Shown here: in pieces, positions 32,505 to 51,515 of the stretch
Position numbering within the stretch: the stretch's first letter is position 1
Layout: every line of letters begins with the position of its first letter
Source of the DNA: Cellulosilyticum sp.
Lineage (GTDB): Bacteria; Bacillota; Clostridia; Lachnospirales; Cellulosilyticaceae
Direction: 5' to 3'
NCBI GenBank assembly: GCA_015058045.1
Contig: SVDC01000013.1
Location: 1-64,000 of the forward strand
DNA: 64,000 bases
Made by a program: the position numbers and the translations under genes
The notes under the pieces: generated by a model
Seen by the model: only the letters and a program-made list of their open reading frames with translations
The model's database searches: none
What the model was told of the DNA's origin: nothing

Positions 32505-32673
32505 GCAACCAAACCTCCCATTCTTTCCCTAGAACCTGTCTTATTTCCATAATATTATAAATTTTACATTATATCAATAGACAACTTAACTAGGATACAT
32601 GATACAAAATCCCTAATTTTTTATGCACTGTTTGATAAATAGGCTATAGTTCAAATAGTATCCCTCTTTCAGT

Positions 32674-33393
32674 TTAAGTATTAATATTTGCTTTTCGTGC
32701 TTGTGAACATAACTGTCTAACATTTACTTGATATAACTTTCCATCTTTAATAAAATTACTTCCACATTGACGAAACTCAAATTTTACTTTATTTTTAATA
32801 CATTGCTCACGAATATCTAATACCCACTCATAGTTTAGTGGTCTGGCATTACAATCAGACTCTCCTCCCACCATTACCAGTTCCACATCACTTAAATATT
32901 TTTCTATATCAATATGTTCGATTAACGGCTGGCATATAATATTTTTATGCTTTATAGGTAAAGTCTGAAAAATTGAAAGCCTAAAATCAGCCATTTCTTG
33001 ATTTTCTATGGTGCACCCCACTGTTACATGATCGTAACCCTCTCCCCAATCCTCAGGAATACACTCCATAAATCTTTCTATACGCTTTGTTAGGAAGATA
33101 AAATGCAAATCAGACCTTTCCTTAATCATTTGCCAACATGCCTCTCGCCACATATCCGCATCTGCTAAAAGAAAATCAGAAGAAAAGCATACGTAGATGA
33201 CTTCCCCTGAGGCTATCTTATATGTGCCTGCTTTTTCTCCTCTTTTGTATCTTTCAATAGGCAATGTATATTGATTCGTCTTTACGATGTCATTTGTATC
33301 CACTCCACGTTTAGTATCCCCTTTATGAATATAACAAAACTTACAACCCTCACTATGCTTATGACAGCCACGCCATGGATTCCATATTGCCAT
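32674..33393 (-). CDS. DUF5131 (phage Gp37/Gp68) family protein
   Basis: The 239-residue protein has the N-terminal signature WNPWRGCHKHSEGCKFCY (4-21), with three cysteines in a C-x6-C-x2-C pattern, and the C-terminal VMVGGES block (about 175-181). It belongs to the DUF5131/Gp37-Gp68 family found in phages and many bacterial genomes. It has been suggested to be radical-SAM-like, but no activity is established to my knowledge. A GAGGGG site precedes the ATG. It lies at the edge of the accessory region. Confidence 0.85.
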   Translation of the reverse strand: MAIWNPWRGCHKHSEGCKFCYIHKGDTKRGVDTNDIVKTNQYTLPIERYKRGEKAGTYKIASGEVIYVCFSSDFLLADADMWREACWQMIKERSDLHFIFLTKRIERFMECIPEDWGEGYDHVTVGCTIENQEMADFRLSIFQTLPIKHKNIICQPLIEHIDIEKYLSDVELVMVGGESDCNARPLNYEWVLDIREQCIKNKVKFEFRQCGSNFIKDGKLYQVNVRQLCSQARKANINT

Positions 33394-33892
33394 ATTTTAA
33401 CCCCTCGCTTTTCCATAGTTATTAGAACTACTTGTTCAGACAACTACATCTTCTATTTAAAATTTTCTATAGTGATCTTTAAAACGCCCCAATATAGTAT
33501 AGTCTATTTTATATTTTCCCAAAAATCAATTTTTTATTCCTAATAAAAATCTAGATATAAAAAGGTAGAGAATGATTATTCACTCTCTACCCTTTTCCAT
33601 TGCTCTATCTATAATTGTAACTCTCCCTATCATTTAAAAGTAACAGCTTCTGTATATTGGATATTAAACGTAAAAACTATCTTCATCTATCTGTCCATGA
33701 CTCTTATAATATACTCCCTATATTAATTTAATCTATTTTGGTATTCTCTCGACCAATCATTTGAAACCTTTTTCTCTACCAAAATATAGTATATGCTATT
33801 TATGAAATAAGAGGTAAGGTTAGTTTATACATCTTTCCTTATCTCAAATTTAGTCTTATGAAATAAATAATTATCTTTAAAATAATTATTTA
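33394..33892. other. Intergenic region with terminator hairpins
   Basis: No gene was found. A GGTAGAGA..TCTCTACC stem with A and T runs (33559-33598) and a 13-bp inverted repeat AATAAATAATTAT/ATAATTATTTATT (33854-33893, overlapping the stop region of the next gene) look like terminators. Otherwise the region is AT-rich. Confidence 0.6.
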
Positions 33893-35683
33893 TTAATTTC
33901 TTGTATAGGCACGCCTCATCAGATTATTAAATTGCTCAGTCCCTGCTTCTAATTCGATTACACTATTAGCATTTCTTTCATAATATTTGCCATCATATAC
34001 AAGTGGTTTATCTTCTGCACATATTTCAAATAAAATTAGTGCTTTATCATAATATGTTATTTGCTTCATATGACGTAAAATATATGATTTTACATCTTCA
34101 TCTATAGGTTCCTTTTCTACCTCCTGCCTAATCTTACCAAAATAATTATCTAGACTTCCCATTGAACTATCTGCTTCATCTTTCACACCTACAATATAAT
34201 ATGTATTAAACTTTCTAGGTTCTGCATCATATATTTTTCTATGTAAATTACTATCTTCTTGTTTATCAGCTATTCCCAATAAAATATATCCTTTTTTCCC
34301 AAATTCAGTATTTCCCATAGCTGTTAATGTCTTAACTATTTTACTTAAACACTGTTTATTATATTTCTTCTCCTGATTTAATCCACATAAGCCAATTTTA
34401 AACTCAAGCATTTGTTGTTCTATCATTGATTGTGTAAGCATCATTTCCAATCTACTAATCCACTCATTAGTAGCAGGTCCTTTAGTATATGCCGTCTTAA
34501 AGTACTTCTTAATAATTCCCGTAAGTGCATTTATTTTCTCTTGTCTTACACTACTTCCCCATTCACTACTACCCAAATTTTGTAATTCCCTATTTCCAAT
34601 CCCACGTAACGCTCTACTAAGTCCCTTATAATCTGTTATCATTTTATCACTGCATATTAAATTGTATATAGTTAAAAAAACAACTTGAAATGATCTTGAC
34701 TTAGCAGTTCCATCACCATCAAATAATAATTTAGAATACGTTTTTCCTGAAGTAGCACTAATTTTCTTTAACTCATCTACCACATCCATAAACTTCTTTT
34801 CGATGCTGTCACTACCTAAGCGTACTATTTTTCCATTCAATTTATCAACCAGTCTCTTTTCATCTTCTTTTCTTCCATATATTACATCTAATGTATGAGA
34901 AGTTGGGGATTCTTCTGGTCCAAGTAAAATATATACTAAAATATGAGCAATTAACTCTTCATCTCTAGACTCACGTATATTCTTTAATGTAATAATCCCT
35001 TCTTTAGTCCAATATATATTACGAATATCAATACCGTAATCAAGATTTTTATTCGATAGACTTATTTTTCTCATTTGTGATAATTCTAATACATCACTTT
35101 CAGAAAAATCTGTTCTTATCTTACAAGCAATATGTCGAACTAAATCAGAAAATTCTCCAATCACACCTGCTTGTCTTAATTCTTGCTTGGATAACTGTCT
35201 TCCATTTGCATTAATTCTTCTAAATATCTCTTCGACATGCATATCATCATAACTAGTAATCGAAAATGGTAATTGATAATTTGCAATACTAGTACATAAT
35301 TCCCTAGGTAATATAGGCTGCTTCTGTATTAACTTCCCACTGTCCATTAATTCTTTTGTGCGAGCCATAGTTTCTAAATCAAAATATCCATTATATTTTT
35401 CGTTTTCTAATTTAAATTCTCCTTCTATGAAAGAAAAAATAGCATCCAGTCTTTGCATACCATCAATTATTTCGTAGTGTTCACCCATAGTAGTTTTAGT
35501 CCTTACAAATAGAAATAATGGCACTGAATATTGTCTAGAAATAGAATCAATAAATTTCTCTTTCTCGTCATAAGTCCATACAAGCTTTCTTTGATACTTT
35601 CTATTGACCCTAAATTTTCCACTAACAAACCAATCATAAACAAGTTGAATTATCTCACCTTTAATTGATAAGTTATTTTCCAT
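33893..35683 (-). CDS. DUF262 protein with C-terminal Schlafen/AlbA_2-like domain
   Basis: The 596-residue protein has a DUF262 (ParB-like, GmrS-related) N-terminus with RKYQRKLVW (28-36) and DGMQRL (74-79), the arrangement used for nucleotide-dependent DNA restriction in GmrSD and BrxU. The last 180 residues resemble an AlbA_2/Schlafen domain: LEFK (426-429), MGNTEF followed by GYILLGIAD (465-473), and YYERNANS (567-574). No HNH nuclease (DUF1607) motif was seen. A defence role is likely from the family and from the island context. The exact mechanism is unknown. GGAGGAG precedes the ATG. Confidence 0.75.
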   Translation of the reverse strand: MENNLSIKGEIIQLVYDWFVSGKFRVNRKYQRKLVWTYDEKEKFIDSISRQYSVPLFLFVRTKTTMGEHYEIIDGMQRLDAIFSFIEGEFKLENEKYNGYFDLETMARTKELMDSGKLIQKQPILPRELCTSIANYQLPFSITSYDDMHVEEIFRRINANGRQLSKQELRQAGVIGEFSDLVRHIACKIRTDFSESDVLELSQMRKISLSNKNLDYGIDIRNIYWTKEGIITLKNIRESRDEELIAHILVYILLGPEESPTSHTLDVIYGRKEDEKRLVDKLNGKIVRLGSDSIEKKFMDVVDELKKISATSGKTYSKLLFDGDGTAKSRSFQVVFLTIYNLICSDKMITDYKGLSRALRGIGNRELQNLGSSEWGSSVRQEKINALTGIIKKYFKTAYTKGPATNEWISRLEMMLTQSMIEQQMLEFKIGLCGLNQEKKYNKQCLSKIVKTLTAMGNTEFGKKGYILLGIADKQEDSNLHRKIYDAEPRKFNTYYIVGVKDEADSSMGSLDNYFGKIRQEVEKEPIDEDVKSYILRHMKQITYYDKALILFEICAEDKPLVYDGKYYERNANSVIELEAGTEQFNNLMRRAYTRN

Positions 35684-35829
35684 TATCTTCTCCTCCTTAA
35701 CATAATCAATTATAATATTTAGAATTATTATACATCAATCTCGATTTAATTTAAATATCTGGTGTTAGTATAATTTAGCGGACACTTAAAGTACGACATA
35801 TTAAAATTTTCTTGAAAGTATGTATTCGC

Positions 35830-36114
35830 ATGGCCCTCAAAACAGGTAATAGGTATCCTAGAGAATTTAAACAACAAATCGTTGATCTTTATAATGCTGG
35901 TACACCAGTTGCAAAACTGGCTAGTGAATATGGCATAATTGAACAAACTATTTATAAATGGATTAAGCTTTATTCTCCTCTCATTGAAGAAGATGATGGC
36001 TCAAGCATTAGTATGAAGGACTATAAAGATCTTCAAAAGAAGCTTGCTCAACTAGAGCTAGAGAATGAAATATTAAAAAAGCTACAGCCATATTCGCCAG
36101 AAATCATTAGATAA
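35830..36114 (+). CDS. IS3-family transposase OrfA (helix-turn-helix)
   Basis: The product of about 94 residues has an N-terminal helix-turn-helix (YPREFKQQIVDLYNAG, LASEYGI, IYKWIK) and a C-terminal leucine-zipper-like segment (LQKKLAQLELENEILKKL). I use the ATG at 35830. OrfB remnants continue in the same frame after the TAA, unlike the usual -1 arrangement. The partner is inactive, so the element is probably immobile. Confidence 0.75.
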   Translation: MALKTGNRYPREFKQQIVDLYNAGTPVAKLASEYGIIEQTIYKWIKLYSPLIEEDDGSSISMKDYKDLQKKLAQLELENEILKKLQPYSPEIIR

Positions 36115-36126
36115 GATTCTTGCTTT

Positions 36127-36650
36127 TATCGTAAGATTCCAAATACCTGTCCTATAAAAACAATGTGTAAAGTATTAAAAATACAAGGTAGTACGTATTA
36201 TGAAAGATTACATCATCAGCCATATAATCGTGAACTTCAAAATCAACAGCTAGATGAGGAAATTAAAGAAATTTACTATACTAGTAAAAAACGTTATGGT
36301 GCACTAAAGATTTATAAAGTACTTCTTTCTAAAACAATCAAAGTAAGTTTAAAACGTGTTCAACATCGTATGGCTTTATTAGGTATACGTTCTATTGTTG
36401 TAAAAAAATATCGCCATCATTCTAGTAATCAAGCTGTGATAGAACAAAAAAATCTTTTAAAAAAGATTTTTCAACAACTTCTATTAATCAAAAATGGTGC
36501 ACTCATATTACCTATATTCATACATTAAGAGATGGCTGAACATATCTTGCTTCAGTCATGGACTTTTATAGTAAAAAGGTTATTAGTTGGCTTATGGTAC
36601 ATCAATGACAGCTGAACTAGCTTTAAAAGCTGTATATAATATCACCGTAT
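36127..36650 (+). pseudogene. Broken IS3-family transposase OrfB
   Basis: The N-terminal HTH_21-like part is intact (PIKTMCKVLKI, RYGALKIYKVL). A frameshift in the A-rich run near 36460 shifts the frame. In the new frame the integrase core start reads WCTHITYI, where the first catalytic Asp (usually WxTDITY) has become His. This is followed by a TGA in place of Trp (near 36536) and more stops. The second Asp region is recognisable (SVMDFYSKKVISW). The DDE domain is lost after that. Confidence 0.75.
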
Positions 36651-37002
36651 AACTGAGTTCGTCGGCTATTACATACTTCTATTAATACTGATTATATATT
36701 CACATTAGTTTTACCATAACTAGTCTGTCTTTCATGTCTATCTTTCTAATGCTTACCCACTCTTTAGAGTGCCAAACTACCACCACAACTGTTTTTTAGG
36801 GTTATTAGTCGTTGCCCACCTAGCAAGCTATTATTACCCTTACATTAATTGCAATAGAAGAAACTACTCAATGAATAATAGCTTTGTTGACTTAACTGCA
36901 TCGGCTCAAGTAAACCTTCGTTTTATACTGTTACGGCATCCAGATTAATTCTGGAACTTGTCTTGCTTTTCAGTGGGAAGTCCTATTCCCAGCTCTCACC
37001 TC

Positions 37003-37385
37003 CTATTTTTTACCCTCAAATAGCCATATCCCAATTTCTCAAGATCTTCTTTATAACGTAGAAGACATACTTTAAAATCTTGAATACCTCTAAACCCCCT
37101 ATTTATTACTCCTTTTTAAGTTCAGCCAATATTTTTTCATATCTATCACTTATTATAAAAGACTTTATAATATCAAATATAGAGTGCATAGAAACTATAT
37201 TTTCAAAGTTTATTCCCTCTAGTTGTATTTTTAACGGTTTTACTTAATATACCGCTAGCTTATGTGTTCCTATTAATTCTTTTAAAAACACTGTTCTGGG
37301 AAGTAAATTAATCACATACATTCTTGATACCCAACTAAAGAATATCTCTTCTAGTTGCACCTTTAATATATTCAATATATTCTAT
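37003..37385 (-). pseudogene. Degraded reading frames of unknown origin
   Basis: One minus-strand frame reads through about 90 codons with a single stop (segments such as LLPRTVFLKELIGTHKLAVY, then after the stop VKPLKIQLEGINFENIV, ending SDRYEKILAELKKE at 37106). An overlapping second frame ends KEDLEKLGYGYLRVKN at 37003. Composition is protein-like, but I do not recognise a family. Confidence 0.3.
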
Positions 37386-37619
37386 ATATTTGCTATTCCT
37401 CAATATTAATTTTAGGCATATTATTTACGAAGAATCTCAAAAAAATTAGAGATAAAGCTGAAAAATAATTCCATCTTTATCTCTAATTATATTTTATATA
37501 TAATTTACAAGCCGCTTTCTTATTATGTGTCTTTTTTTCATGTTTAATTTCCATTAATACGTTTCACTGCTGAAATATGTTCTACGTTTAATTTCTAATA
37601 CATAGCTTTGTTATTTGAC

Positions 37620-37793
37620 AAAGAGCTGTACAAATATAAATTTGCTCAGCCCTTAATCTTTCATTCTAAAATTATGTATATATTTAAAGAGGTCTACAAT
37701 TATAGCTCATCCACTACTATTACGTTATTAATTTCTTAACAATAGGTTTGCAATTATAAAATTACTCTATTTTACAAGAGTTTTACAATTATA
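37620..37793 (+). repeat. Four copies of a 19-bp repeat (left flank of the island block)
   Basis: Copies at 37620-37638, 37686-37704, 37741-37758 and 37775-37793 approach the consensus AAAGAGGTNTACAATTATA. Three further copies, in the same order but on the other strand, are at 51560-51680. Spacing is irregular (66, 55 and 34 bp), so this is not a CRISPR array. Confidence 0.6.
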
Positions 37794-37817
37794 TTTATAT
37801 AAAATACCCTCAGACTA

Positions 37818-40136
37818 TTAAATTACTTCAGACTTAATCCCTATAATTATTCCTCCTACTCCTACTAAATTCTTTGCTGGCATATATTTATTTAATACGC
37901 CTGGCATAAGACCTGTTATCCCCTTCGTTTCTAAATCCCGTCTCTCTAATATAGGTTCTCTATATCCTTTAATACTTGAACCAATTATTCCACCAGCTGT
38001 ACTAGTACTTTTAACCTGAATCTGATCAGTTTCGCTATTTTGCCTATTAACTTTATCTAATCCTTTACATGAGTATATATTGGTGGCCTTAAAGTCTATA
38101 TTCCTTCTTAAAACACTATTATATTGCATATATTCTTTAACAATTTTTCCACTTTCGCGTTTGGTTGTACAGTTGATAAAATTACACTCATCAATATAAA
38201 TAACAGTTCCTTTTGGTTTTTCATATCCTGAACAATAAATCAAAAATCCTTTATTTAAATCTGCTCCATCAAAAATGCATTTTTTCATGGTGCTATAATT
38301 TGTATCATGTTCTTTTCCTCTACAAAACTCCATACACCCTTGCTTATAATCTTCATCATTCAAATAAGTTGTATTAATAAACTCACAGTATTCAATCGTT
38401 ACACCTCCACAATAACTCGTTTTAATAAAATTATTTCGACATCTAACAAATTGGCAATATAACATATGTACTTTAGGACCCAAATCAGCAACTTTTGTAC
38501 AATCAATAAATACACAATCTCTTATCTGCTTAACTATATCGCAATAAAAATTCTTTATAGCTATTACTTCATCACAGTTTTCAAATTTGCATTCACTAAT
38601 ATTCCCATTTGTTTTTATACATTTTGTTGCCCCTACAAATGTACAATTGCTGATATACCCATTATCTACAGAAAAATATGTGTGTATATTTCTTTCATTT
38701 TTTTTCATCTTTTGTTTAAATAACTCAGTTTCTATAATAAAACATTCTTTAACCGTTATATTATTTCCATAAAGGTTTATAAGTTCTTTATCATATTTAT
38801 TTATTTCAGTACATTTAACATTAAAGTCCGATATATCATTTTGTTCTATAAAACAATTCTCTATTTTTGCCATTCCCCCATCTAGAATCCTGCCTGTAAT
38901 AAAACCAATATATCCATTTCGTATAATACAATTTTCAACCTTCAGTAACCTTGGGCTATATAAATACAAGAAGTTTGAACAATCAATTAACTCGCAATTT
39001 ATGATATTTACATTAAAATCATCTTTATCTTCTGATTTGATGAAATACTTTTCATTTGTATCTTTACAAATAATTTTACAATTTTTCATGGTTAAATTAG
39101 CATCTGACAATAAGATAATTTCATTTATACTATTTAATTCATTATAATAAATAATACAGTTATCAAATATCAAGTTTCCTTCACAATTAATACATGTATT
39201 TATATGTATATTTTTATTTTTAAATATCTTTTCTTCATTTTGTCCTATATGTAAACTATTTGATATGTACTCATCTAGTTTTTCTTCTGTTGTTACTAAT
39301 ACCTCTTGATCTTCTTCAATTTCTACACAAAACACTTCATCAATCACTTCATGCTCTTCCTGTGTATATTTATCTAAAAATCCTTGTTCACCTCTAAGAT
39401 TATAAATATCTTGTATACGTTTCTTTATACTTTTAATAGTTTTTCCCCCAACATCAAAGTATTCAATAAAATCTTTAAACTCATCTATTTCTTCAATCTG
39501 ATTAGAATGTAAAAATATATACTCCAAACAGCATGTAAGAACATTTTTTATAGAAATTCTATTTTCAATATCACATATTGCTTTTTCTAAATTCTCTATG
39601 GTGGTTTCTGTATCAATTACATTCAAAACACAATGTGCATATCTTTTTTGATTTTCTGACGTATAATCAAATTTTTCCATTAATTTAAAAAAGCATCCAC
39701 TTAATATTTGTCTTTCCCTCTCATTTAAATTAATAATAGTAAACGAACTATTGCTTCCTAAAATAAGACTATTTTCTAGCTGCTGTATTCTTTTAATTAA
39801 AACATTATCATGTTCTGCTAATCGCTTTATACTCTCAACATTCTTCAATATTAAGTCTGATAACTCTTCATCTGTTTTAGAAAGACGTACTAATATTTCT
39901 ATTAAAATTTGTTGTGCTTGAGCTAAACTACCAATTTGATTTGCCATTCTCTTTTCATTCTTTTTAGAAAATGTGATCATATTAAAAACACGTTGATACC
40001 ATTTCTCATTTTTTATCTCATAAAATTGATCTTCTGTAATATTTGAAAGTCTTTCAATAGTCTTTCTCAAGTCATACATATTACATTCTTCTGTTTCATA
40101 ATAATCATAATCTATAAGTACTTCTTCTCTAACCAC
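37818..40136 (-). CDS. Unknown protein with beta-helix-like repeats
   Basis: I recognise no named family. The first 300 of 772 residues are helical and charged. From about 300 to 690 there are many turns of the type 'xCxFxNC', e.g. VIIN, VENCIIRNG, IENCFIE, VKECFIIE, ISNCTFVG, ISECKFENC, IRDCVFIDC, IEYCEFINT, MKKCIFDG and IDECNFINC, typical of a right-handed parallel beta-helix. The last 60 residues are glycine-rich and hydrophobic (LVGVGGIIIGI). The start is GTG, overlapping the stop of the upstream gene by one base, so the two are translationally coupled. There is no signal peptide. Function unknown. Confidence 0.6.
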   Translation of the reverse strand: MVREEVLIDYDYYETEECNMYDLRKTIERLSNITEDQFYEIKNEKWYQRVFNMITFSKKNEKRMANQIGSLAQAQQILIEILVRLSKTDEELSDLILKNVESIKRLAEHDNVLIKRIQQLENSLILGSNSSFTIINLNERERQILSGCFFKLMEKFDYTSENQKRYAHCVLNVIDTETTIENLEKAICDIENRISIKNVLTCCLEYIFLHSNQIEEIDEFKDFIEYFDVGGKTIKSIKKRIQDIYNLRGEQGFLDKYTQEEHEVIDEVFCVEIEEDQEVLVTTEEKLDEYISNSLHIGQNEEKIFKNKNIHINTCINCEGNLIFDNCIIYYNELNSINEIILLSDANLTMKNCKIICKDTNEKYFIKSEDKDDFNVNIINCELIDCSNFLYLYSPRLLKVENCIIRNGYIGFITGRILDGGMAKIENCFIEQNDISDFNVKCTEINKYDKELINLYGNNITVKECFIIETELFKQKMKKNERNIHTYFSVDNGYISNCTFVGATKCIKTNGNISECKFENCDEVIAIKNFYCDIVKQIRDCVFIDCTKVADLGPKVHMLYCQFVRCRNNFIKTSYCGGVTIEYCEFINTTYLNDEDYKQGCMEFCRGKEHDTNYSTMKKCIFDGADLNKGFLIYCSGYEKPKGTVIYIDECNFINCTTKRESGKIVKEYMQYNSVLRRNIDFKATNIYSCKGLDKVNRQNSETDQIQVKSTSTAGGIIGSSIKGYREPILERRDLETKGITGLMPGVLNKYMPAKNLVGVGGIIIGIKSEVI

Positions 40137-41425
40137 TATCTATCCCATCCCATCTTATCAAATAGCTCAAATTCCTGTTCCACACTACTAGAAATATATT
40201 GTACTTTTTTGATATTCTTGTAAGCACAGTTTTGACTTTTAGAAATTCTTTCTAGATCTTCTTTCATATTATATGTCATTCCATATATATAACCCGATGA
40301 ATTTAATATTGTTTCATATACTCCTTTTCCATATATTTCATCTAATATGTTTTTACATGTCGCACTAATATAAATTCCTATCATCATTCCACCTAAAATC
40401 CCCATCTCTCCTGGTGGTAAAAAAATACTTATTCCTCCTATCGCAGCACCTATTACTGTACTGTTCATTGTATCTTCACTTATTTTTAAAAAAGCCTCTT
40501 TCTCACCCAACTCACCATTCTTATATCTAATATAGCTTGTTATAGTAGATACTGTTAAGCCAACTGCAGCTCCAACAATTGCTCCTTGTGTTACTTCCTT
40601 TATAATATTTTGACTAGTAACAGATGTTGTTGCTTCCCCTTTAAGTATTTTTGCTCGTAATCTTTCATTAGAATCTCTTACTTGAGAACCTGTATTTTTT
40701 TCTATTACTTTATTAGTTAATCCTGCCTCTTTTGCTGCTCCACTAGTTCCTTTTACACTAAATATAATATCCTCTTGCGTAGCTGTTTCCTTTAATATAG
40801 CTTCTTTTATATCTTTAATTGCTGTACTATCTTTTGTCATTACTCCAATAGATGACTTAATCGTTGTTCTATGAATTATTTTTCCATTAAATCTATTTAT
40901 TGTCATCCCATCTATACCTGCTGCATTCCCATCCAGGAGACTATTTTTTTGAATCAATGATTTTATTTGGCCATTCTTACGTCGTAACCAGTCAACTTCT
41001 TGAGCATATCCTGTTAACTTCTTATCAAAAATCTGTATCGAATTCTTTCTCCCATCTAAAATCCCCATTCTTTCCATTTCATCTGCCCTAGCTTGTAATA
41101 TCTTCAAATAATCCTTTGCATTCTCAGGTGTAGAAAATACCTTCATTTGCTTAAAAGCTTCTTCATCTAATCGTTTGAATACTTGAATATCTCTTACAAA
41201 CTGGTGTGTTCCTTCATAAGAAAGATTAGTTCCTATTATTTTATTTACACTTTTAGCTACTTTATCTAATTCATTGGAAGTAATTAATGTATATTGCCCC
41301 ATAATATTTACTAAATCAGCTGCTTCACCTATCCATTCAGGATGTTTTTCTATTTGTTTCCTAATATATGGGCAAATCTCATCATTACTATGACAACGTC
41401 TACACTTGTTACAATACCACTTCAT
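40136..41425 (-). CDS. Unknown protein with zinc ribbon and glycine-zipper membrane segments
   Basis: The protein of about 429 residues has no named family that I recognise. The N-terminus has a Cys/His cluster (WYCNKCRRCHSNDEICPY) likely to bind zinc. The middle is helical and basic. About 290-390 holds two glycine-rich hydrophobic segments (IVGAAVGLTVSTITSYI and VIGAAIGGISIFLPP) followed by GILGGMMIGIYISA. Such glycine zippers can form membrane pores. I choose the ATG at 41425, with GGAG 6 nt upstream; ATGs at 41437 and 41455 are in frame. Coupled to the beta-helix gene. Confidence 0.6.
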   Translation of the reverse strand: MKWYCNKCRRCHSNDEICPYIRKQIEKHPEWIGEAADLVNIMGQYTLITSNELDKVAKSVNKIIGTNLSYEGTHQFVRDIQVFKRLDEEAFKQMKVFSTPENAKDYLKILQARADEMERMGILDGRKNSIQIFDKKLTGYAQEVDWLRRKNGQIKSLIQKNSLLDGNAAGIDGMTINRFNGKIIHRTTIKSSIGVMTKDSTAIKDIKEAILKETATQEDIIFSVKGTSGAAKEAGLTNKVIEKNTGSQVRDSNERLRAKILKGEATTSVTSQNIIKEVTQGAIVGAAVGLTVSTITSYIRYKNGELGEKEAFLKISEDTMNSTVIGAAIGGISIFLPPGEMGILGGMMIGIYISATCKNILDEIYGKGVYETILNSSGYIYGMTYNMKEDLERISKSQNCAYKNIKKVQYISSSVEQEFELFDKMGWDR

Positions 41426-41455
41426 ACTCTTCTCCATATTCCTATCCATTAACAT

Positions 41456-42032
41456 ACAATATCTTATTTATAAAATAATTTTATACTAAATTTATTCTTT
41501 TTCAACTTATCTTTTATAAGAAAAGTACTATGTTCATATCCTATATTCCATAATAACATATCATCACCTAATTTTAATTTTACATATATATATTCTGTTA
41601 TAATTAGGAAATTCATGTTTGGTAATATATTCCTATAATCAAATACATTCATATACACCTAAAAGCACCTATACTATTTAAAAATTTTTATTATCTCTAA
41701 ATAGTATAGGTGCTTTTCTTTTTTTAACTGCATGATTATCATTTCTAACAAAGAAAACTTTTGTTTTCTACTCAGTCTTCTAAATGTTTTATAATATGTA
41801 TCCCGCTTAAACTTATCTCTTATAGGATGAATCTAATACTAGCCTACATATATCTATTTAAAAATATATGTAAGGGAACAAACGAATTGCCTATACCTCG
41901 AAGTAAAAATATTAATCCTAAAAGTCTTGCAGAAAAATTACTTAGTATATATGATGATATAAATACCACTCTTGACAATAACAAGGATATGACAAAAAAA
42001 CTAAACTCTATCTTCTTACAACAATAACTATC
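41456..42032. other. Intergenic region with strong inverted repeat and doubtful small ORFs
   Basis: A 17-bp perfect stem (AGCACCTATACTATTTA / TAAATAGTATAGGTGCT, 41666-41714) has a T-tract on the plus side and TTTT on the minus side, so it is probably a terminator. A minus-strand frame of up to 64 codons (41464-41658) and a plus-strand frame (from ATG 41827 to 42027, 66 codons) lack good ribosome sites. They are listed here rather than called as genes. Confidence 0.5.
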
Positions 42033-44828
42033 TCATTTCAGTTTCAATGTTTGTTGTACTACAACACTTGCCTCCTGCTCGGCCTCATTCTCATATCTAT
42101 CTTTATAAGTAATACTATTACTTATTAACCATTCAAAACTTCTATTCTGGTCAACAGCTTCATCTGGAATCAAGGCATATGCCCATGATTTCCCACCATA
42201 TTTGAGATTAAATTCTGTAGCTGCTCTACAATATTCCATAGCTGCTTGTGCTTTAAGTTGTACCACTTCATCCTTTACTTTATTTCTATCTTTAGTTTCC
42301 ACTATATAAATCATCTTTTCTGTCTCTACTACAAAATCAGGTTGATAATTATGTTTGCTTTCCCTATCCCAATATAGCTTGAATTGTTTCTGTGCCGGAC
42401 ACATCCATCTTAAAACTTTACTATCATCCTCTAATATAATAGTAAATGTTTTCTCTGTATTATTCTTGAACTTATACATTGAATGGCAACTTTTACTGAA
42501 TCCATTGAACACTTTTTTTACTACTTCTGAGGGTTTAATATATACCCTAAAATCATAGATACTATCCGATTCAAATTTTTCTCCACATGCCATTTCTATC
42601 TTAGAAAATGGTTTCATTTCACTTGCTTCAAATCGTATATCCTCTTTATAAAAATGCTCTTTCATCTGATTATAAATAATGTCTCCTAAATCTCTTTTTC
42701 TTTGTATAAGTACTTGTTGTATCTCTTCATTATTTAAATATGTTGATAAATGTTGTTGCAACTGACTTATTAACTTATATATTAAATCCGACGTTTGGCT
42801 ATAATCTACATCTGTTTTTTCTAAAATAATATACTTAATAATTTCACGCTCTGGTGTATCATATGCTTCTTCTGCTTTATTATTAGAGCGAAGATAATCC
42901 ACCTTTCCTTCTTTGCCTAATGATTTCATTTTAATATCTTCGCTAGATGGCCTGTAATTAATAGCACGAACATCTAAATCAAAGTCATAAAACCCTTGCT
43001 TAATTTCTAAAATTTGCTGTACAGTTGATTGTGGTATAGGAATTACTTTATCATTTACTAATTGACTTACTAGTTTTACCACAACTTCTGCACATTCAGT
43101 AGCTGCTTGTATATCATTTTTTAGATTTGGGAATAATTGAGAGGTCCTTTGTATAACTGCATTTCTAACCAATGCTTTACATTCTTCATTTTGAATCTCA
43201 TTAATATTCTTCACTTGCTTACTTAGCTCATTTATCGCTTCATGAGCCACCCTAGCCATATATGTTGCTATTTCTTCCTTAACTTGTTCTGTTTCTGCAA
43301 CATCATCTGATATATTTAAGCTAATTTGCTCAATAAATACTGGCTTTGCTATTTCTTCTTCTACGACTGGTGGTAATGTTATAATCTTTTTCTCTTCACC
43401 ATGTGTATTCTCATTAGGATCAATGTAGTAATATTTACGTACTAATGAATTAGGATCATTTGCAAGTTCTATTATATTTTGAAATTTGTCATGATGAATT
43501 ATAGTCAATCGGTCTAGTTTTTCTACTCCTGTGCGTTCACCATAGGGCAAACGCAACCCCCTACCTATAGTCTGTTCCGTTAAAGTCTCAGAAGCAGAGG
43601 CACGTAATGGAATAATTGTATATAAATTATTTACATCCCATCCTTCTTTAAGCATATTTACATGAATTACAATTTCTATTTTATTATTATATTCCTCTAA
43701 AGATAATAGTTGTTGAATATTTATGTCCTTCTCAATTCCACTTTGATTTGAATTTACTTCGATTACCTTATCTTTATAATACCCTCTAAAGAAATTATCT
43801 GACATAATGTATTCTTTGATTTGTGCTGAATGCTTAGTGTCTTTAGCAACAACTAGTATAAACGGTTTTATTAATCTCTTACCATTTTCTCTTGAATATT
43901 TTTCTAACTCTGCTTTAGTATCAATATGAACCCTTACACCATCTTCTAGTTTAATATGATCTAGTTCTTCATCATTATATTGACTAGAAATAAAATTCTC
44001 TCTAGTAGCAACATATGGTACTTTTATATACTTACCATCATCTAATGCATGTGCAAGTGAATACTCATATACTACATTTTTAAACTTAATTGCTCTACTA
44101 CCATTTTGTACTTGTGGTGTTGCTGTAACTTCTATTCCTAATATAGGATTAAGTTCATTAATTACAGCTAAAGCCCTGTCTGCTCTATAGTGATGACTTT
44201 CATCCATTAATAATACTAAATCATCAAGATTCTTTAGATACTCAAAATAAGATTCACCTAAAACTTCATTTAAACGCTTAATACGAGGAAGTTGCCCTTT
44301 CTTTCCCTTTGACTCAGCATTTAGTTTTGCAATATTAAACACATTAATCGTTACTTCATTATTTCCAAATGTATTATTTCTAAATTCTTCATAATTTTCT
44401 CCATGTATAATACGTGGTGCTGATGAAAAGGCATCCAATCCTTTAAATACATATTTAGGATTATTTATATCTGATAAATCAGCAACTAATTTATTATAAA
44501 TTGTTATATTAGGTGCCATTACAAAGAAATTCTTAATCCCCTTCTTATAGTACAAATATGCAATAAATGCTCCCATAAGTCTGGTTTTTCCTACACCTGT
44601 AGCTAATGAAAAACAAATATTACAAAACTCTCTTTCAAACTCTTCAAATGTGCTACTAATACTTCTTACTTTATCTATTTCCTGTTTTAAATAACTTTCT
44701 TTTTTATCCAAGTCTACGATTTTAGCAAGTTCTAGCTTATCACAAATAGCTTCAAAAATTTCTAAGCTCTTCTTCTGAGGGTCACGAAGCCTAAGTCTAT
44801 TTGATATATAATTAGCTTGCTTATTCAT
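42033..44828 (-). CDS. Type III restriction enzyme Res-like subunit (helicase-nuclease)
   Basis: The 931-residue superfamily 2 helicase has Walker A LATGVGKT (75-82) and a DESHH box (209-213), a conserved helicase C domain (EQTIGRGLRLPYG) and a C-terminal PD-(D/E)xK nuclease with PDFV (Asp831) and ETK (Glu844, Lys846). This is the layout of type III Res subunits, which translocate and cut DNA with Mod. AGAGGAG precedes the ATG. It starts 4 bp after the methylase stop and ends the three-gene set 49383-42033. Confidence 0.9.
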   Translation of the reverse strand: MNKQANYISNRLRLRDPQKKSLEIFEAICDKLELAKIVDLDKKESYLKQEIDKVRSISSTFEEFEREFCNICFSLATGVGKTRLMGAFIAYLYYKKGIKNFFVMAPNITIYNKLVADLSDINNPKYVFKGLDAFSSAPRIIHGENYEEFRNNTFGNNEVTINVFNIAKLNAESKGKKGQLPRIKRLNEVLGESYFEYLKNLDDLVLLMDESHHYRADRALAVINELNPILGIEVTATPQVQNGSRAIKFKNVVYEYSLAHALDDGKYIKVPYVATRENFISSQYNDEELDHIKLEDGVRVHIDTKAELEKYSRENGKRLIKPFILVVAKDTKHSAQIKEYIMSDNFFRGYYKDKVIEVNSNQSGIEKDINIQQLLSLEEYNNKIEIVIHVNMLKEGWDVNNLYTIIPLRASASETLTEQTIGRGLRLPYGERTGVEKLDRLTIIHHDKFQNIIELANDPNSLVRKYYYIDPNENTHGEEKKIITLPPVVEEEIAKPVFIEQISLNISDDVAETEQVKEEIATYMARVAHEAINELSKQVKNINEIQNEECKALVRNAVIQRTSQLFPNLKNDIQAATECAEVVVKLVSQLVNDKVIPIPQSTVQQILEIKQGFYDFDLDVRAINYRPSSEDIKMKSLGKEGKVDYLRSNNKAEEAYDTPEREIIKYIILEKTDVDYSQTSDLIYKLISQLQQHLSTYLNNEEIQQVLIQRKRDLGDIIYNQMKEHFYKEDIRFEASEMKPFSKIEMACGEKFESDSIYDFRVYIKPSEVVKKVFNGFSKSCHSMYKFKNNTEKTFTIILEDDSKVLRWMCPAQKQFKLYWDRESKHNYQPDFVVETEKMIYIVETKDRNKVKDEVVQLKAQAAMEYCRAATEFNLKYGGKSWAYALIPDEAVDQNRSFEWLISNSITYKDRYENEAEQEASVVVQQTLKLK

Positions 44829-44832
44829 TATT

Positions 44833-46515
44833 CTACTCCTCTTCGTTTATAGTAGTTGCTACTTCATCAACTACTGTATCATTAATTTTCATATTATAGC
44901 TTTCAACTCCGAAGTCATATTTATCTAGTATCGACTGTGGTATTTTTTCAATGTTAATATTGTCATAACGTTCTTCTAATCCTTGTTGATATGCTGGACA
45001 GCAAATCAATAAACTTTCATCACTCTTCATTTCGCTATGTAATAAATCAATATACTCTACTGTAATCATTTGATCCGTAGTAAAGATATAGTCATTCTCA
45101 TATGAATAACCTTGTTTCCAAAATACCTCCTCATCAGGATGATATGTAAATCCATGGTATTTCGCTACTGCAGCTGCAATAGCAGTAGCTGTATATATAT
45201 CTTTATTTATAATCCAATTTCCATACTTATCCTTCTTCAATAGTGATGGTGGAACCTCATAAAAATTATATCCACCACCGCCTCTCCAATTAACACTTTC
45301 TGATATTCCACTTGTGTCACCATCAATTACTCTAGATAATCTTGTCTGACAATGAGAATAACATTGTTCCCCCATCTCAATTCCTATCCATTTTCTTTTC
45401 ATTTTATGAGCAACAGCTGCTGTTGTCCCAGAACCCAAAAATGAATCTAGTACAATATCACCTTCATCACTAAAATATTTTAATATCATTTCAAGTAAAG
45501 CTTCAGGTTTCTTTCCACTTCTAAATTCTACACCTCCCTCTTGTCTACAATTTCCAAATTGAGCTGCAAAATCATAGAAGCCATTTATTGGTATTGTACG
45601 TGTCATATTATCTTCTTCCAATTTTTTAACTGGAATCCCTTGATAGTATTTTCCTTTAGTAGCTCCTATTTTTTTAGGCCCAGTAAAATATCTATACGGA
45701 TACCTATCATCTCCTATATCATATACTTTATATAATACTCCATATCCATCTTCTTCATATCTACCAGTTAAATAATCTCTAAAAAATCTACCTGATGAAT
45801 TACCATCTAAAATAGTCCCTGATGCCCAAATTTCTTTTAACCCATATTCAGACCCCTCTTTTTTTACTATCTTATATTGGTCTTTATTAAATATTTCTAC
45901 TTTTTTGCCTCCTAATAGAACTTCTTCACCTTGCCCAATTTCTTCTACATAATAGCAAAATTTGTCTAGTCCAACTTCTTGCACATCTAGATTAGGTTTA
46001 GCACCATGTTTTTTTCTATATACAAATATTTGTTCAATTTCCTTGTGAAAATCCATATCCACTTTCAATGTCTTTTCTGGATATCTTACCCTTATATACA
46101 AAGTAGTTAAATAATTTTGTCTACCAAATATTTCATCCAATAGTAATTTTAAGTAATGTCCTTCTGAATCATCTATATGGCAACAGAAAAAACCATCTTC
46201 TCTTAATAAGCCTTTTAATATTTCTAATCTTGGTTTCATCTGATTTAACCATATGCTATGTTCGAGGTTATCTTCATAATGTTCAAACATACTACCAGTA
46301 TTATATGGAGGGTCTATATATATACATTTTACTTTTCCTGCATACTCTTGTTCTAACGCTTTTAATGCTACTAAATTATCTCCATGAATCAAAATATTAT
46401 CATCAAGCTTGTTACCATATGATCTTTTTTCATCATACAATAAAATTCTAGGTTCCACCCTAACTGCCTGTTCCTTTCCTATCCATGTCAATTCAAGTTT
46501 CTGCTTTATACCCAT
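44833..46515 (-). CDS. Site-specific adenine DNA methyltransferase (type III Mod-like)
   Basis: The 560-residue beta-class amino-methyltransferase has motif IV DPPY (68-71) first and then motif I DSFLGSGTT (357-365), the order of type III Mod enzymes. The long segment between them (about 135-330) is the target-recognition region. It modifies adenine in host DNA to protect it from the neighbouring Res-like enzyme. AAGGGGA lies upstream of the ATG. The gap to the SNF2 gene is 18 bp and to res 4 bp, one operon. The recognition site cannot be predicted. Confidence 0.9.
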   Translation of the reverse strand: MGIKQKLELTWIGKEQAVRVEPRILLYDEKRSYGNKLDDNILIHGDNLVALKALEQEYAGKVKCIYIDPPYNTGSMFEHYEDNLEHSIWLNQMKPRLEILKGLLREDGFFCCHIDDSEGHYLKLLLDEIFGRQNYLTTLYIRVRYPEKTLKVDMDFHKEIEQIFVYRKKHGAKPNLDVQEVGLDKFCYYVEEIGQGEEVLLGGKKVEIFNKDQYKIVKKEGSEYGLKEIWASGTILDGNSSGRFFRDYLTGRYEEDGYGVLYKVYDIGDDRYPYRYFTGPKKIGATKGKYYQGIPVKKLEEDNMTRTIPINGFYDFAAQFGNCRQEGGVEFRSGKKPEALLEMILKYFSDEGDIVLDSFLGSGTTAAVAHKMKRKWIGIEMGEQCYSHCQTRLSRVIDGDTSGISESVNWRGGGGYNFYEVPPSLLKKDKYGNWIINKDIYTATAIAAAVAKYHGFTYHPDEEVFWKQGYSYENDYIFTTDQMITVEYIDLLHSEMKSDESLLICCPAYQQGLEERYDNINIEKIPQSILDKYDFGVESYNMKINDTVVDEVATTINEEE

Positions 46516-46533
46516 ATCTATTCCCCTTTATAA

Positions 46534-49383
46534 TTAAATAATTTCCCAACGTAATCTCATTAACTCTTCTACTTGTTGTCTTCCATATAAATGTTTTTCT
46601 ACACTTTTTTGTAATTCTACATTTTTCCTATCAATCTTTTCATGCTCATCACGTTCTGCCTTAATCTTTTCATAACGCTTCTTTTCCAAACTAGCAATCT
46701 GATTATTTAAAGTAACTGCTTCATCTAATGTTTTAGCTTGCTTTCGGTTCTTCTTGAGTTCCGAGATTTCTCTTTCTATTTGCTTTATTTCTTTCTCTAT
46801 TCCTTGTTTAAGATCCTCACTCCATGCCTCAATTTTTTCACATTCTTCATTATAGTAATTAAAATCGCTTTGTTCTAATTCATCCCTAATATTCTTTTTA
46901 TGCTCTTCTCTTAATTCAATAAGTTTATCACATATAGTAAATTCTTCTTTTACTTCATATTGTGTCACAGGCAATTCCATTAATCTCATACTTATTTCGT
47001 GATCTAATATAACACCATCATCTGTAACTGCTGAAAATATAAGCTGTTCACTATACTCAAATGAGTCATTAATAAATTTATCAATGACCAAATACCCTTT
47101 TTTTACATCTAATTGTTCTAAAAAGCTAACTTTATTTTCCGTACCTGAGTAATTAATTATTAGTTGTCCACACATTGAACTATTATTCAATCCTAATTTA
47201 ATTAAATTTTGAAGCATGCTATCTTCTAATCGTAAAAAATGATCGCCCATCTGTTCAGCTAATTTCCAATTTATATTATAAAACCCTTTAGCATAATCAT
47301 TGCCTTTATAATAAAATCTTCCTTTGATCCTATCTTCCTCTATTTCTCCTGCTAGTTCTGCTTGTACAATTCCATAAATCCATTTTTCATATTTCGATAA
47401 TGAAATATTAGTTTCTTCATTTCTAAATTTAAGTAGATTACTGACTTCCTCATCAAAATTCTCCAGTAATGCTTGTCTAGTATTTGTTAATCTAGCTTGT
47501 ATCTGTTCTTCTAACTCATCTTGTATTTTATCAAATGATCTTTTAATAGTTTCTGTATCTCTAGCATTTTGATAAATTTCTATAATCCTTCGTTCAAAAT
47601 CAATACCACTCTCAATGCTTCCTAGTACCTCATCTGATGAACCAAATACACCATCGAATAATTTAAACTTTTGATCTAATATTTCATATACTCTTTGCTC
47701 TGCTTGATTATTGATATTTAAGAAATTTATCACAACCACATCATTCTTCTGACCATAACGATGACATCTACCAATTCTTTGCTCTATTCTTTGAGGGTTC
47801 CATGGTAAATCATAATTTACTAATAGTGAGCAAAATTGTAGATTTATCCCCTCTGCTGCTGCTTCCGTTCCAATTAATATACTAGCTTCATCACGAAATG
47901 CTTCAACTATAGCTGACTTCATATCTGCTTGTTTTGAACCTGAAATTACATCCTCACCCCTATGCTTTTCCATCCAAGCATTATATATCTGCTTTGACCC
48001 ACTATCATTATTGGAACCATTTAAAAACACTATTCTATCTTTATACCCATTAAGTGTAAGAAGATTAAACAAATACTCTTGCGTCCTTTTTGATTCAGTA
48101 AAAATTACTGCTTTTCTCTTTGCACCTATTTCTTCTGCCTTAGCAAAACCCTTTTCTAATGCCTGAAGTAAATTCTGTCCCTTAGCATTAATAGTAATTT
48201 TTTCAGCAAGTCGTAAGTATTCTCTCAACTGCTCAAGTTCTTTTTTTATTTCATCTCTATCATCAACTTTAGTAAAATATTCATCTACTTCTTCTTCATC
48301 CCATTCTTCGATAAGCTCATTTAAGTGATCATAGTCCTCTAATTCTAAATCCACCTCTATTCCCTCTAACATTTCTTCTAATCTCATAATAAGTGATTTC
48401 AAAGTTCCAGCTATTGCAAATGATGATGATGCTAAGAGTTTCCACAAAACCATAGTCATTAATTTTCTTTGGCTATTAGGTAAGGCATATAATTTTTCAC
48501 TTTTTAGATATTCTGCTACTTTATTATATAGTAACTCCTCCTCTTTACTTGGTTCATATTTTTTCAGAATAGGAATACGTCTAGTATATGGTACATATTC
48601 AACTACTTGCTTACGCAATGTTCTTTTACAAAACGGACTTATTCTCTTTTTCAAATAATGATTTCTAATATCTTCGTTATCAACATTTACATACATTTCT
48701 TTAAAAGTTTTGACATCACCAAATACATGATTATCAATGATACTGACTAATCCATATAACTCCAATAGAGAATTTTGTAACGGGGTAGCAGTAAGTAATA
48801 GCTTCTTTCTACCCTTTAATGCATTTTTTAGAGTGTTCCCCAATACATTTGTTTTTTTGTAAACACTCCTAAGCTTATGTGCCTCATCAATTACTACTAA
48901 ATCCCATTTTGTATCAACTAAATCTCTTTGATTTTTAGCTGCAAATTGATAAGAACATATTACAATTTCACTTTCTCTATTAAATGGATTAATACTACCT
49001 TGTTTCTTTTCTAAATTATAATTTTTCCCATCCAATATAATGGACTTTAAATAAAATTTATCATCTAATTCGCCTCTCCACTGATTTCTAAGTGAAGCAG
49101 GAACAATTAATAGTATTTTTCTTTTTCTCTCTGCCCAATACTGTGCCATCACTATACCAGCTTCAATTGTTTTACCCAATCCTACTTCATCAGCAAGTAT
49201 TACTCCATTAGATAACGGTGAACGAAATGCAAATAGTGCTGCTTCTATTTGATGTGGATTTAAGTCAACCCTTGCTCCGCCTAATGAAGTAGCTAAGCTA
49301 TCAATGCTATTGCTAGGTCTTTTTAAAGTAAGCTGAGTAGCAAAATATTTGGAATGAAATGGTGTATATATATTCGTACCCAT
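46534..49383 (-). CDS. SNF2/RapA-type helicase of the modification-restriction operon
   Basis: The 949-residue protein is a Snf2-family ATPase with Walker A ADEVGLGKT (64-72), DEAH box (166-169), helicase C motif GTEAAAEGINLQF and QRIGRCHRYGQ, and a C-terminal coiled-coil-rich region of about 150 residues. SNF2 proteins of this type accompany methylases in several defence systems (e.g. DrmD in class 1 DISARM). Here it is first in an operon with a Mod-like and a Res-like gene. No strong ribosome site is visible before the ATG. Its role in target scanning or licensing is inference. Confidence 0.88.
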   Translation of the reverse strand: MGTNIYTPFHSKYFATQLTLKRPSNSIDSLATSLGGARVDLNPHQIEAALFAFRSPLSNGVILADEVGLGKTIEAGIVMAQYWAERKRKILLIVPASLRNQWRGELDDKFYLKSIILDGKNYNLEKKQGSINPFNRESEIVICSYQFAAKNQRDLVDTKWDLVVIDEAHKLRSVYKKTNVLGNTLKNALKGRKKLLLTATPLQNSLLELYGLVSIIDNHVFGDVKTFKEMYVNVDNEDIRNHYLKKRISPFCKRTLRKQVVEYVPYTRRIPILKKYEPSKEEELLYNKVAEYLKSEKLYALPNSQRKLMTMVLWKLLASSSFAIAGTLKSLIMRLEEMLEGIEVDLELEDYDHLNELIEEWDEEEVDEYFTKVDDRDEIKKELEQLREYLRLAEKITINAKGQNLLQALEKGFAKAEEIGAKRKAVIFTESKRTQEYLFNLLTLNGYKDRIVFLNGSNNDSGSKQIYNAWMEKHRGEDVISGSKQADMKSAIVEAFRDEASILIGTEAAAEGINLQFCSLLVNYDLPWNPQRIEQRIGRCHRYGQKNDVVVINFLNINNQAEQRVYEILDQKFKLFDGVFGSSDEVLGSIESGIDFERRIIEIYQNARDTETIKRSFDKIQDELEEQIQARLTNTRQALLENFDEEVSNLLKFRNEETNISLSKYEKWIYGIVQAELAGEIEEDRIKGRFYYKGNDYAKGFYNINWKLAEQMGDHFLRLEDSMLQNLIKLGLNNSSMCGQLIINYSGTENKVSFLEQLDVKKGYLVIDKFINDSFEYSEQLIFSAVTDDGVILDHEISMRLMELPVTQYEVKEEFTICDKLIELREEHKKNIRDELEQSDFNYYNEECEKIEAWSEDLKQGIEKEIKQIEREISELKKNRKQAKTLDEAVTLNNQIASLEKKRYEKIKAERDEHEKIDRKNVELQKSVEKHLYGRQQVEELMRLRWEII

Positions 49384-49481
49384 TATAATAAAATCACCAA
49401 CTTATTATTTAATTTTTACTTTTTTATATTTTAATCTATTTTTTAACTTAATTCAATTTATTATGTAATCAAAGTTTATTT

Positions 49482-49527
49482 CAAAAAAAGAGATGGCTAC
49501 AGTTAATACCATATACCATCTTCTTGT
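49482..49527 (-). terminator. Intrinsic terminator after the TIR/membrane gene pair
   Basis: On the minus strand an AGATGGTATA..AGCCATCT stem is followed by CTTTTTTT. It separates the TIR/membrane pair from the SNF2 operon. Confidence 0.75.
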
Positions 49528-49552
49528 TCGGATTCTCTTTATCAGCTATTTA

Positions 49553-50338
49553 TTAATTGTCTACTTCACTATTATTAGAACTTGCTATTACTCTATTTTT
49601 CAGTACTTCATTTCTATAAATAATGCCCATAAAAATAACATCTATTAGCATACTTAATATGTATATATTATTAGGTATACTCACTATAAAATGATCTACA
49701 ATTGTTATAAGAATATATATTGTTACTCCTAGTCTTATAGCCCATTTCCACAAACTTGACCCCATGTCAACTATACTCTCTACCAAAAAAACTATGTTAA
49801 CACAAAAACATAATCCTCCAATAGTACCTTGAAAAATCATTACAGTAAGTACATCTTGAGATTTAAATTCTAAATATAACTTAATCCCAATACATATACT
49901 ATATATTATAGGTATTATAACTCTATATGAATAATAGGTAATATTATTTAGACATGGATAATTATTCAAATATGATTTACCTTCTCGTGTTATCGAGTCC
50001 ATTTCGATAGTATTTATTTGATCTTCCAATTTATGAATATAATCATACTTCTTATCAATATTAATATTTATACCGTAATAACGTAAGGTATAAATAAGTA
50101 AAATAATCCATAAAACCACTTGAATTATAGAACTAGAAAACATGATATCACAATCATATGTAGACTTGCTCCAAGCTTGTAGAATCCCCATTAAACTGTC
50201 TTTGTCTATAGAAAATAAAAATAGAATCCCCATAAAAATCCATACTCTTATAAATAAGCTATTGCGATTTTTTTCCCAAGAGCGTACTATTTCACAAGTT
50301 TCTTTATAATGGTCATATAGTAATTCTAGCCTACCCAT
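49553..50338 (-). CDS. Multi-spanning membrane protein coupled to TIR gene
   Basis: The 261-residue protein has about six hydrophobic segments (near 28-45, 69-88, 131-149, 155-178, 186-206 and 220-242) and a cytosolic charged loop (about 92-128). No macro, SIR2 or SLOG domain was found. It starts one base after the stop of the ThsB-like TIR gene, so they form a coupled pair ended by a terminator. A membrane effector triggered by the TIR product is a reasonable hypothesis. The family is not recognised. Confidence 0.65.
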   Translation of the reverse strand: MGRLELLYDHYKETCEIVRSWEKNRNSLFIRVWIFMGILFLFSIDKDSLMGILQAWSKSTYDCDIMFSSSIIQVVLWIILLIYTLRYYGININIDKKYDYIHKLEDQINTIEMDSITREGKSYLNNYPCLNNITYYSYRVIIPIIYSICIGIKLYLEFKSQDVLTVMIFQGTIGGLCFCVNIVFLVESIVDMGSSLWKWAIRLGVTIYILITIVDHFIVSIPNNIYILSMLIDVIFMGIIYRNEVLKNRVIASSNNSEVDN

Positions 50339-50339
50339 A

Positions 50340-50774
50340 CTACTTTCCTACTAACTCATTTAGTTTTTCTAGAATATCTTCCAGATTAAATGAATACACC
50401 CATTTAGCTCCTACCCCATAAGCTTCACTTGGAGCAGCATTCTCTTGTTTTATTTTTACTACTACCAAGCCATTTCCTTTTTCTGTATTCTTCGCAATTT
50501 CGTAAGCTTGCCAATTATTATATCCAATCTCTTTACTATCTGGATGCTTATCATTTGAATGTTCTCCAATGATTGCAATCATATAGTTTGCTTGTCCAAT
50601 TTTTGTACTTAAAACTTGCTTTACAGTTGATACAGATTCTGTTTTAATCTCATTTGGTGTACAATCATTGATGCTAAAATCAATTTTTGGATTCTCATTC
50701 CATGCTTCAATTAAATTATAATAAAGTCTATCATGCTCATAGTCAAAAGACACACATACTTTTTTCTTTGCCAT
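50340..50774 (-). CDS. ThsB-like TIR-domain protein (DUF1863/MTH538 fold)
   Basis: The 144-residue single-domain protein has the MTH538 TIR-like pattern: VCVSFDYEHDRLYYNLI (7-23), a central YMIAIIGEHS strand, NWQAYEIAKNTEKGNGLVVVKI and the C-terminal GVGAKWVYSF. It resembles Thoeris ThsB proteins that make a nucleotide signal from NAD+ during phage infection. I choose the ATG at 50774, since AGGAGG lies 10 nt upstream. The longer frame to 50834 lacks a ribosome site. No classical ThsA is beside it; the next gene is a membrane protein. Confidence 0.85.
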   Translation of the reverse strand: MAKKKVCVSFDYEHDRLYYNLIEAWNENPKIDFSINDCTPNEIKTESVSTVKQVLSTKIGQANYMIAIIGEHSNDKHPDSKEIGYNNWQAYEIAKNTEKGNGLVVVKIKQENAAPSEAYGVGAKWVYSFNLEDILEKLNELVGK

Positions 50775-50850
50775 ATGCTCTACTCCTCCTAAAAAATTAT
50801 TTAAAGTAATATTATTGTTCTTATAATATAACAAATTTTCTATATTTTCA

Positions 50851-51514: not shown

Positions 51515-51515
51515 T

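Follow-up and report, generated by a model that had tools for sequence, protein, structure and literature searches.

Two overlapping genes, here called A and B, on a 64,000-nucleotide stretch of DNA from Cellulosilyticum sp. (contig SVDC01000013.1, positions 1 to 64,000; this whole stretch is referred to as the window) look like a rare variant of a modular class of anti-phage systems, built of two genes each, to which Bunzi and two PADLOC candidates, PDC-M09 and PDC-M40, belong. We give about an even chance to the reading that A+B acts against phages (or mobile elements) by abortive infection, with B as the sensor or regulator and A as the membrane effector. A defence role of the pair is well supported by its context, through several independent lines. 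This reading is based on the recurrence of the genes in other genomes, the homologies of their domains, the swapping of partners beside BnzB and PDC genes, the WYL regulators found at related loci elsewhere, and the accessory island in which the pair is located. The coordinates of the features are collected in Table 1.

Gene A and its kinship with PDC-M09B

The start of gene A at 41425 is, judging from the sequence, better than that of the longest open reading frame (ORF; 40136-41455, minus strand), because GGAG is located 6 nt upstream of its ATG, and because the relative of A in a Bacillota metagenome-assembled genome (L025) opens likewise (MKWYCEKC). The searches of A and of B against Pfam, NCBIfam, PADLOC, PHROGs, and PDB gave no convincing match; the top Pfam matches of A were glycine-zipper models, which remained below the cut-off (E 0.0047). 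Hence, the statement of an earlier note on this DNA, made from the sequence alone, that neither protein belonged to a recognised family was upheld by the library searches, but it does not apply to the C-terminus of A, which belongs to the PDC-M09B group.

The A protein of L025 matched PDC-M09B (PDLC04409) in PADLOC over its C-terminal part with an E-value of 7.1e-5, while window A had no full-length PDC-M09B match in PADLOC. When the profile of the window and L025 A proteins was compared by hhalign with eight PDC-M09B-like proteins, A residues 283-362 were aligned with a probability of 90 (E 1.7e-6, score 54.8). The scores of the controls were lower, with a maximum of 30.2 for 60 block shuffles, 25 for reversed profiles, and 22 for an unrelated glycine-rich M09A profile. 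On the other hand, no homology was detected between the N-terminal two thirds of A and the N-terminus of PDC-M09B (hhalign probability 0.3). Because the profile-profile alignment scored above the shuffles, while the N-terminus was without homology, A was assigned to the PDC-M09B C-terminal group, and it appears to be the C-terminal domain of PDC-M09B behind a different front end. In this front end C5, C8, H12, and C18 are all kept in L025, while C11 is not, so the Cys/His ribbon proposed earlier can be described as a conserved C-C-H-C cluster. The glycine-zipper segments (about residues 274-361), which the earlier note had also pointed out, are likewise conserved between the window and L025.

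The middle region of A contains a conserved DG-x-T-x-NRF-x-GK-x-I-x-R-TTIK stretch and a conserved E upstream of it, which could form a D...(T)xK core. This observation is relevant to the main rival explanation within defence, in which A would be mainly a membrane-anchored nuclease with a degenerate restriction-endonuclease-like middle domain, which cuts incoming DNA at the membrane, while the zipper serves only as an anchor. Such a role would agree with the D...QxK motif of PDC-M09B proteins, which carry this C-terminal domain, and with a protein of locus L033 that carries it as well (hhalign probability 94.6) behind an N-terminus that appears HNH-type by eye, although Pfam made no call. However, A has a T where the motif has E/Q, the N-terminal part of A is not related to that of PDC-M09B in the hhalign comparison described above, and the AF2 model of A, obtained from a two-sequence alignment, was unusable (pLDDT 38) and without a confident fold. 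Hence, a mainly nucleolytic A seems unlikely to us.

The predicted beta-helix and the N-terminal domain of gene B

The motif (IVLM)xx(C/N)xFxx(C/N) occurs four times in B residues 301-720, while in 2000 shuffles it occurred 0.16 times on average and never more than twice. The AF2 model of B, which was based on three sequences, had a mean pLDDT of 65 and strands across residues 287-690; its pLDDT, mostly 60-93 until about residue 625, was below 50 from about residue 659. The beta-helix part superposed on solved right-handed beta-helices with Z values of 21-24.5 (VIA), of which the best was AlgG 4ozy (Z 24.5, 2.6 Å over 280 residues), and the Foldseek lists for B were dominated by beta-helix. 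These data confirm the beta-helix whose turns had been seen in the sequence. The glycine-rich hydrophobic tail, which had been noticed together with the turns, is present in the window and in L025, and absent from the B homologue on a phage-labelled contig, L003, described below.

The nearest solved folds of B are polysaccharide enzymes and tailspikes, which could suggest that B is a surface or phage-tail beta-helix protein (an adhesin, a polysaccharide lyase, or a tailspike-like protein) with A as its membrane partner. The likeness to right-handed beta-helix proteins (AlgG, PL6 lyases, tailspikes) concerns the fold of residues 285-697, while the identity is 6-13%, and B has a different N-terminal domain and a different setting. 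Moreover, neither a signal peptide nor a cell-wall or tail domain was recognised, the N-terminal domain of B (B N-domain) is also found on proteins without a beta-helix, and the neighbours are defence genes. With 29 Cys among 420 residues, the protein is also cysteine-rich, and this points to the cytosol. Phage structural genes were present in none of the loci read, L003 included, and the homologues were not found in core, phage-tail, or surface loci, the first two of which the earlier note had named as settings contrary to its proposal. Hence, a surface or tail function appears very improbable.

Other assignments of the helical B N-domain were also considered. TerB (PF05099) gave no Pfam match in this domain, and hhalign against two TerB-like proteins gave a probability of 0.3; one further comparison set consisted mostly of glycine-rich proteins, and adds little. 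The alignment of the B N-domain to M09A had a probability of 1, and neither TerB nor M09A has profile support.

Recurrence of the genes in other genomes

A scan of 84,980 species genomes identified L025, which has both genes; its A protein is 52% identical to that of the window, and its B protein about 39% identical over nearly full length. Elsewhere, A was not found in the 145 relatives, the 391 genomes of the order, or the 298 genomes of the phylum that were searched, apart from weak partial matches. The fact that both genes are kept as full-length ORFs elsewhere argues that they are not chance ORFs. In L025, a small HEAT-like gene (about 541-825) lies between a WYL regulator and A and overlaps the start of A; this gene, which is absent in the window, could be a third component.

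A search of phage records by tblastn found no relative of A and a single relative of B, with 28% identity over 91%. It is located on MT838879.1 (L003), a contig of 4.8 kb from human faeces that is deposited, unverified, as 'Bacteriophage sp.'; a resolvase-type ORF is present on it, while no structural gene could be recognised. The gene upstream of this B homologue is a true PDC-M09B (E 1.2e-125). Hence, homologues of the two genes stay together in L025, while in L003 B is found with another partner, and the pair does not consist of these two genes in every locus. Relatives of the L003 PDC-M09B gene were found on plasmids of Klebsiella, Leptolyngbya, Lactococcus, and Niallia, where a PDC-M09A-sized gene precedes each in the loci that were read, and all four of the scanned partners were PDC-M09A. 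The PDC-M09 pairs of two Klebsiella plasmid loci (L004 and L006) adjoin terABCDE tellurite-resistance genes.

The scans of viral contigs gave no relative, and tblastn against plasmids gave none for window A, window B, L025 A, or L003 B. The matches in G165 (a flagellar hook gene), G014, G260, and probably G846 were rejected as spurious, either after reading the loci or because they were weak and partial.

Partners of the B N-domain and WYL regulators

Profile searches and pairwise BLAST detected the B N-domain in four further genomes (G001, G116, G303, and G507), where the proteins that carry it have a different C-terminal part or none at all. The gene directly upstream of the B N-domain protein is BnzB in G001 (E 8e-27) and G303 (E 1.2e-40), and PDC-M40B in G507 (E 1e-52), while the B-type protein of G303 itself also matches BnzA (E 3.3e-8). 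When L003 is included, a PADLOC defence-model gene is located immediately upstream in four of the five B N-domain loci outside the A+B type. Among 166 genomes of the order, BnzB was found in only 9 and PDC-M09B in only 3, so that the repeated adjacency is not background. The possibility that BnzB, M40B, and A are one effector family was ruled out by hhalign, which placed them in different gene-1 families. Across these loci the constant element is the B N-domain, while the upstream partners vary. In locus L015 (4939-7082), the gene of a B N-domain protein that has no C-terminal module overlaps a serpin gene, and the same locus has a RAMP-like ORF, as read from its sequence, at 719-2890.

The pairs in L025, G001, and G303 each have a WYL regulator next to them, as has a multi-gene PDC-M09-type locus in G380; these regulators are of a single family, with identities of 38-71% (71% for L025 vs G303). 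Such regulators have been described at defence loci (PMC9122601), and they control CBASS and BREX (PMC9122588; PMC9122589). Locus L033 (2017-8749) contains, in a row, a WYL regulator, an M09A-like fragment, the HNH-like glycine-zipper protein, a PDC-M09B-like gene, a TerB-like gene, and M09A; two glycine-zipper effectors are thus present within one locus.

These data are also relevant to the possibility that A and B are a toxin-antidote or addiction module, or an interbacterial toxin with its regulator, which was not selected for phage defence. The coupled two-gene layout, the patchy distribution, and the mobile setting, with an IS3-like remnant recognised by sequence near the window pair and the resolvase-type ORF of L003, would all be consistent with such a module. 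However, no secretion signal or polymorphic-toxin module was recognised, and the swapping of partners with BnzB and PDC families, together with the common WYL regulators, points to defence. Hence, we consider a module of this kind rather improbable.

Comparison with known systems

Bunzi, which consists of BnzA and BnzB, has been validated experimentally (Millman et al. 2022, as cited in PMC10952713), while the PDC systems come from a 'guilt-by-embedding' screen (PMC12988326). No published description of PDC-M09 was found in the open-access literature that was searched. Like PDC-M09, the window pair consists of two coupled genes, the glycine-zipper C-terminus of A is homologous to that of PDC-M09B, and the M09B of L003 is found with a B homologue. 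It differs in the N-terminus of A, which consists of CCHC and an unrelated middle, in the reversed gene order, and in the partner of A, which is the helical and beta-helix protein B instead of the glycine-rich M09A; B had no M09A match in PADLOC. The likeness to Bunzi consists in the B N-domain on the gene downstream of BnzB in two genomes, in one of them with a BnzA-like domain, and in the same WYL family. However, A is not a homologue of BnzB (no PADLOC match; hhalign probability 0.1), window B had no BnzA match in PADLOC, and BnzB was not found in the genome to which the window belongs (G000). The similarity to PDC-M40, whose M40B is an HNH-like and transmembrane protein, is the order of genes in G507, where M40B is followed by a B N-domain protein, while A has no M40B homology (no PADLOC match; hhalign probability 0.3), and the B-type protein of G507 has another C-terminal part.

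Because the features that define Bunzi, PDC-M09, and PDC-M40 were each looked for and were absent, A+B is, on these homology data, not a member of any of them. It probably works like these systems, because the C-terminus of A is common to PDC-M09B, and the B N-domain is common to the neighbours of BnzB, PDC-M40B, and PDC-M09B.

Proposed function of the pair

In the abortive-infection reading, B would sense infection through its variable beta-helix, which could be a recognition or scaffold module, and would control A, while its N-terminal helical domain would be the part that stays constant and connects B to the effector; the B relatives carry DUF5050, a BnzA-like domain, or another C-terminus in place of the beta-helix. 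Once B perceives infection, the glycine-zipper domain of A would insert and assemble in the cell membrane, possibly as a pore, and the N-terminal part of A could be a gate, a sensor, or a second toxic activity. Co-translation would keep the two proteins in stoichiometric amounts, and A would thereby be held in check. The earlier note had considered a defence function plausible because of the neighbouring genes, and this proposal gains support from the recurrence of the pair, from the absence of the island in a sister species, and from the B N-domain beside BnzB, PDC-M40B, and PDC-M09B.

Several observations weigh against this reading. The B N-domain gene of G116 has a small protein with one transmembrane segment upstream, a serpin downstream, and no defence-model gene, and no WYL gene adjoins the window pair, as the three WYL genes of its genome are on other contigs. 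PDC-M09 and PDC-M40 are themselves candidates only. The membrane insertion of A is predicted from its primary structure, and its AF2 model is poor (pLDDT 38). Phage defence by A+B is likewise a prediction, as are the trigger, the direction of control, and any phage phenotype, while the roles of sensor and effector are deduced from domain types.

A broader proposal, which we put forward tentatively, is that the B N-domain could be an undescribed adaptor that joins interchangeable sensors (beta-helix, DUF5050, BnzA-like) to effectors (BnzB, PDC-M40B, PDC-M09B, A), so that Bunzi and several PADLOC candidates would form one WYL-linked class with A+B as a new subtype. To our knowledge, no mechanism is known for the protection by Bunzi against phages, PDC-M09 and PDC-M40 are unnamed, and no relation of either to Bunzi has been stated. 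If the proposal is true, the N-domain and the WYL family that link Bunzi, PDC-M09, PDC-M40, and A+B would make the class testable as one. It would also be unusual for a defence system of two genes to have a beta-helix as its candidate recognition module.

Transcription unit and accessory island

The junction of the two genes reads GGATGGGATAGATAGTGGTTAGAG, in which the final G of TAG, the stop codon of A, is also the first base of GTG, the start codon of B, as the one-base overlap with GTG coupling reported earlier had implied. The junctions of this type elsewhere are a 4-nt overlap in L003 and a 5-nt gap in L025.

Table 1. Positions of the A and B genes, their parts, and the surrounding features in the window
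Feature	Position	Strand	Basis or remark
Gene A, 429 aa	40136..41425	-	CCHC zinc-knuckle-like N-terminus, alpha/beta middle, C-terminal glycine-zipper domain
A cluster C5-x2-C8-x3-H12-x5-C18, putative zinc site	41372..41413	-	Conserved with L025
Hydrophobic glycine-zipper segments of A, residues 271-365	40331..40615	-	Hydropathy, hhalign
TAGTG overlap of A and B	40134..40138	-	Sequence read
Gene B, 772 aa, GTG start	37818..40136	-	ORF; L025 homologue opens alike, MV(R)EEV
B N-terminal helical domain, about 260 aa	39357..40136	-	Profile matches, pairwise BLAST, AF2 helices 10-255
Predicted B right-handed parallel beta-helix, residues about 285-697	38046..39284	-	AF2, Foldseek, VIA
B glycine-rich hydrophobic C-terminal tail	37821..38045	-	AF2; low model confidence
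Terminator-like hairpin, 20-pair stem and short T run	41666..41712	-	Separates restriction-modification genes from A
Accessory island, ~19 kb	32505..51697	.	With type III restriction-modification set, DrmD-like helicase, TIR, and DUF262-Schlafen genes

The pair is located directly downstream of the type III restriction-modification and DrmD-like genes on the same strand, which could suggest that A and B are accessory genes of this set. However, a gap of about 600 bp and the terminator-like hairpin lie between them, in a region where two terminator-like sites were found vs 0.6 expected, and a restriction-modification gene was found next to neither the L025 pair nor the L003 homologue. Such an accessory role is highly improbable, and the pair appears to be its own transcription unit inside the island. 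In the sister-species genome G006, the genes matching 31518-32504 and 51698-54088 are only 139 bp apart, and the region between 32.5 and 51.7 kb is therefore best read as an insertion. Its contents, as identified by Pfam and PADLOC, are DUF5131, DUF262-Schlafen, the IS3-like remnant, B, A, type III Res and Mod, the DrmD-like helicase, a 261-aa gene of no recognised family, and a ThsB-type TIR gene.

At the left edge of the island, the DUF5131 protein (32674-33393) matches PADLOC PDC-M30B/M41B. It is followed by DUF262 (GmrSD_N) fused to Schlafen AlbA_2 (33893-35683), with partial PADLOC matches to NsnA and PD-T4-2_A, and by the apparently truncated IS3-like transposase ORFs (35812-36528). About 1.3 kb without long ORFs, which looks like decayed DNA, separates these from B. 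On the other side of the pair (42033-49383), type III Res and Mod come after the DrmD-like SNF2 helicase, which makes an unusual three-gene restriction-modification set; the helicase matches the NCBIfam model DISARM_DrmD_b with an E-value of 7.4e-209, yet below the cut-off of that model. At 49553-50834, the 261-aa gene, whose protein had no library match, abuts the ThsB-type TIR gene and could encode its partner, while no Thoeris ThsA was recognised. Outside the island, the gene at 28204-29232, which is present in G006, has a partial match to PADLOC PDC-M43B (E 2.2e-11).

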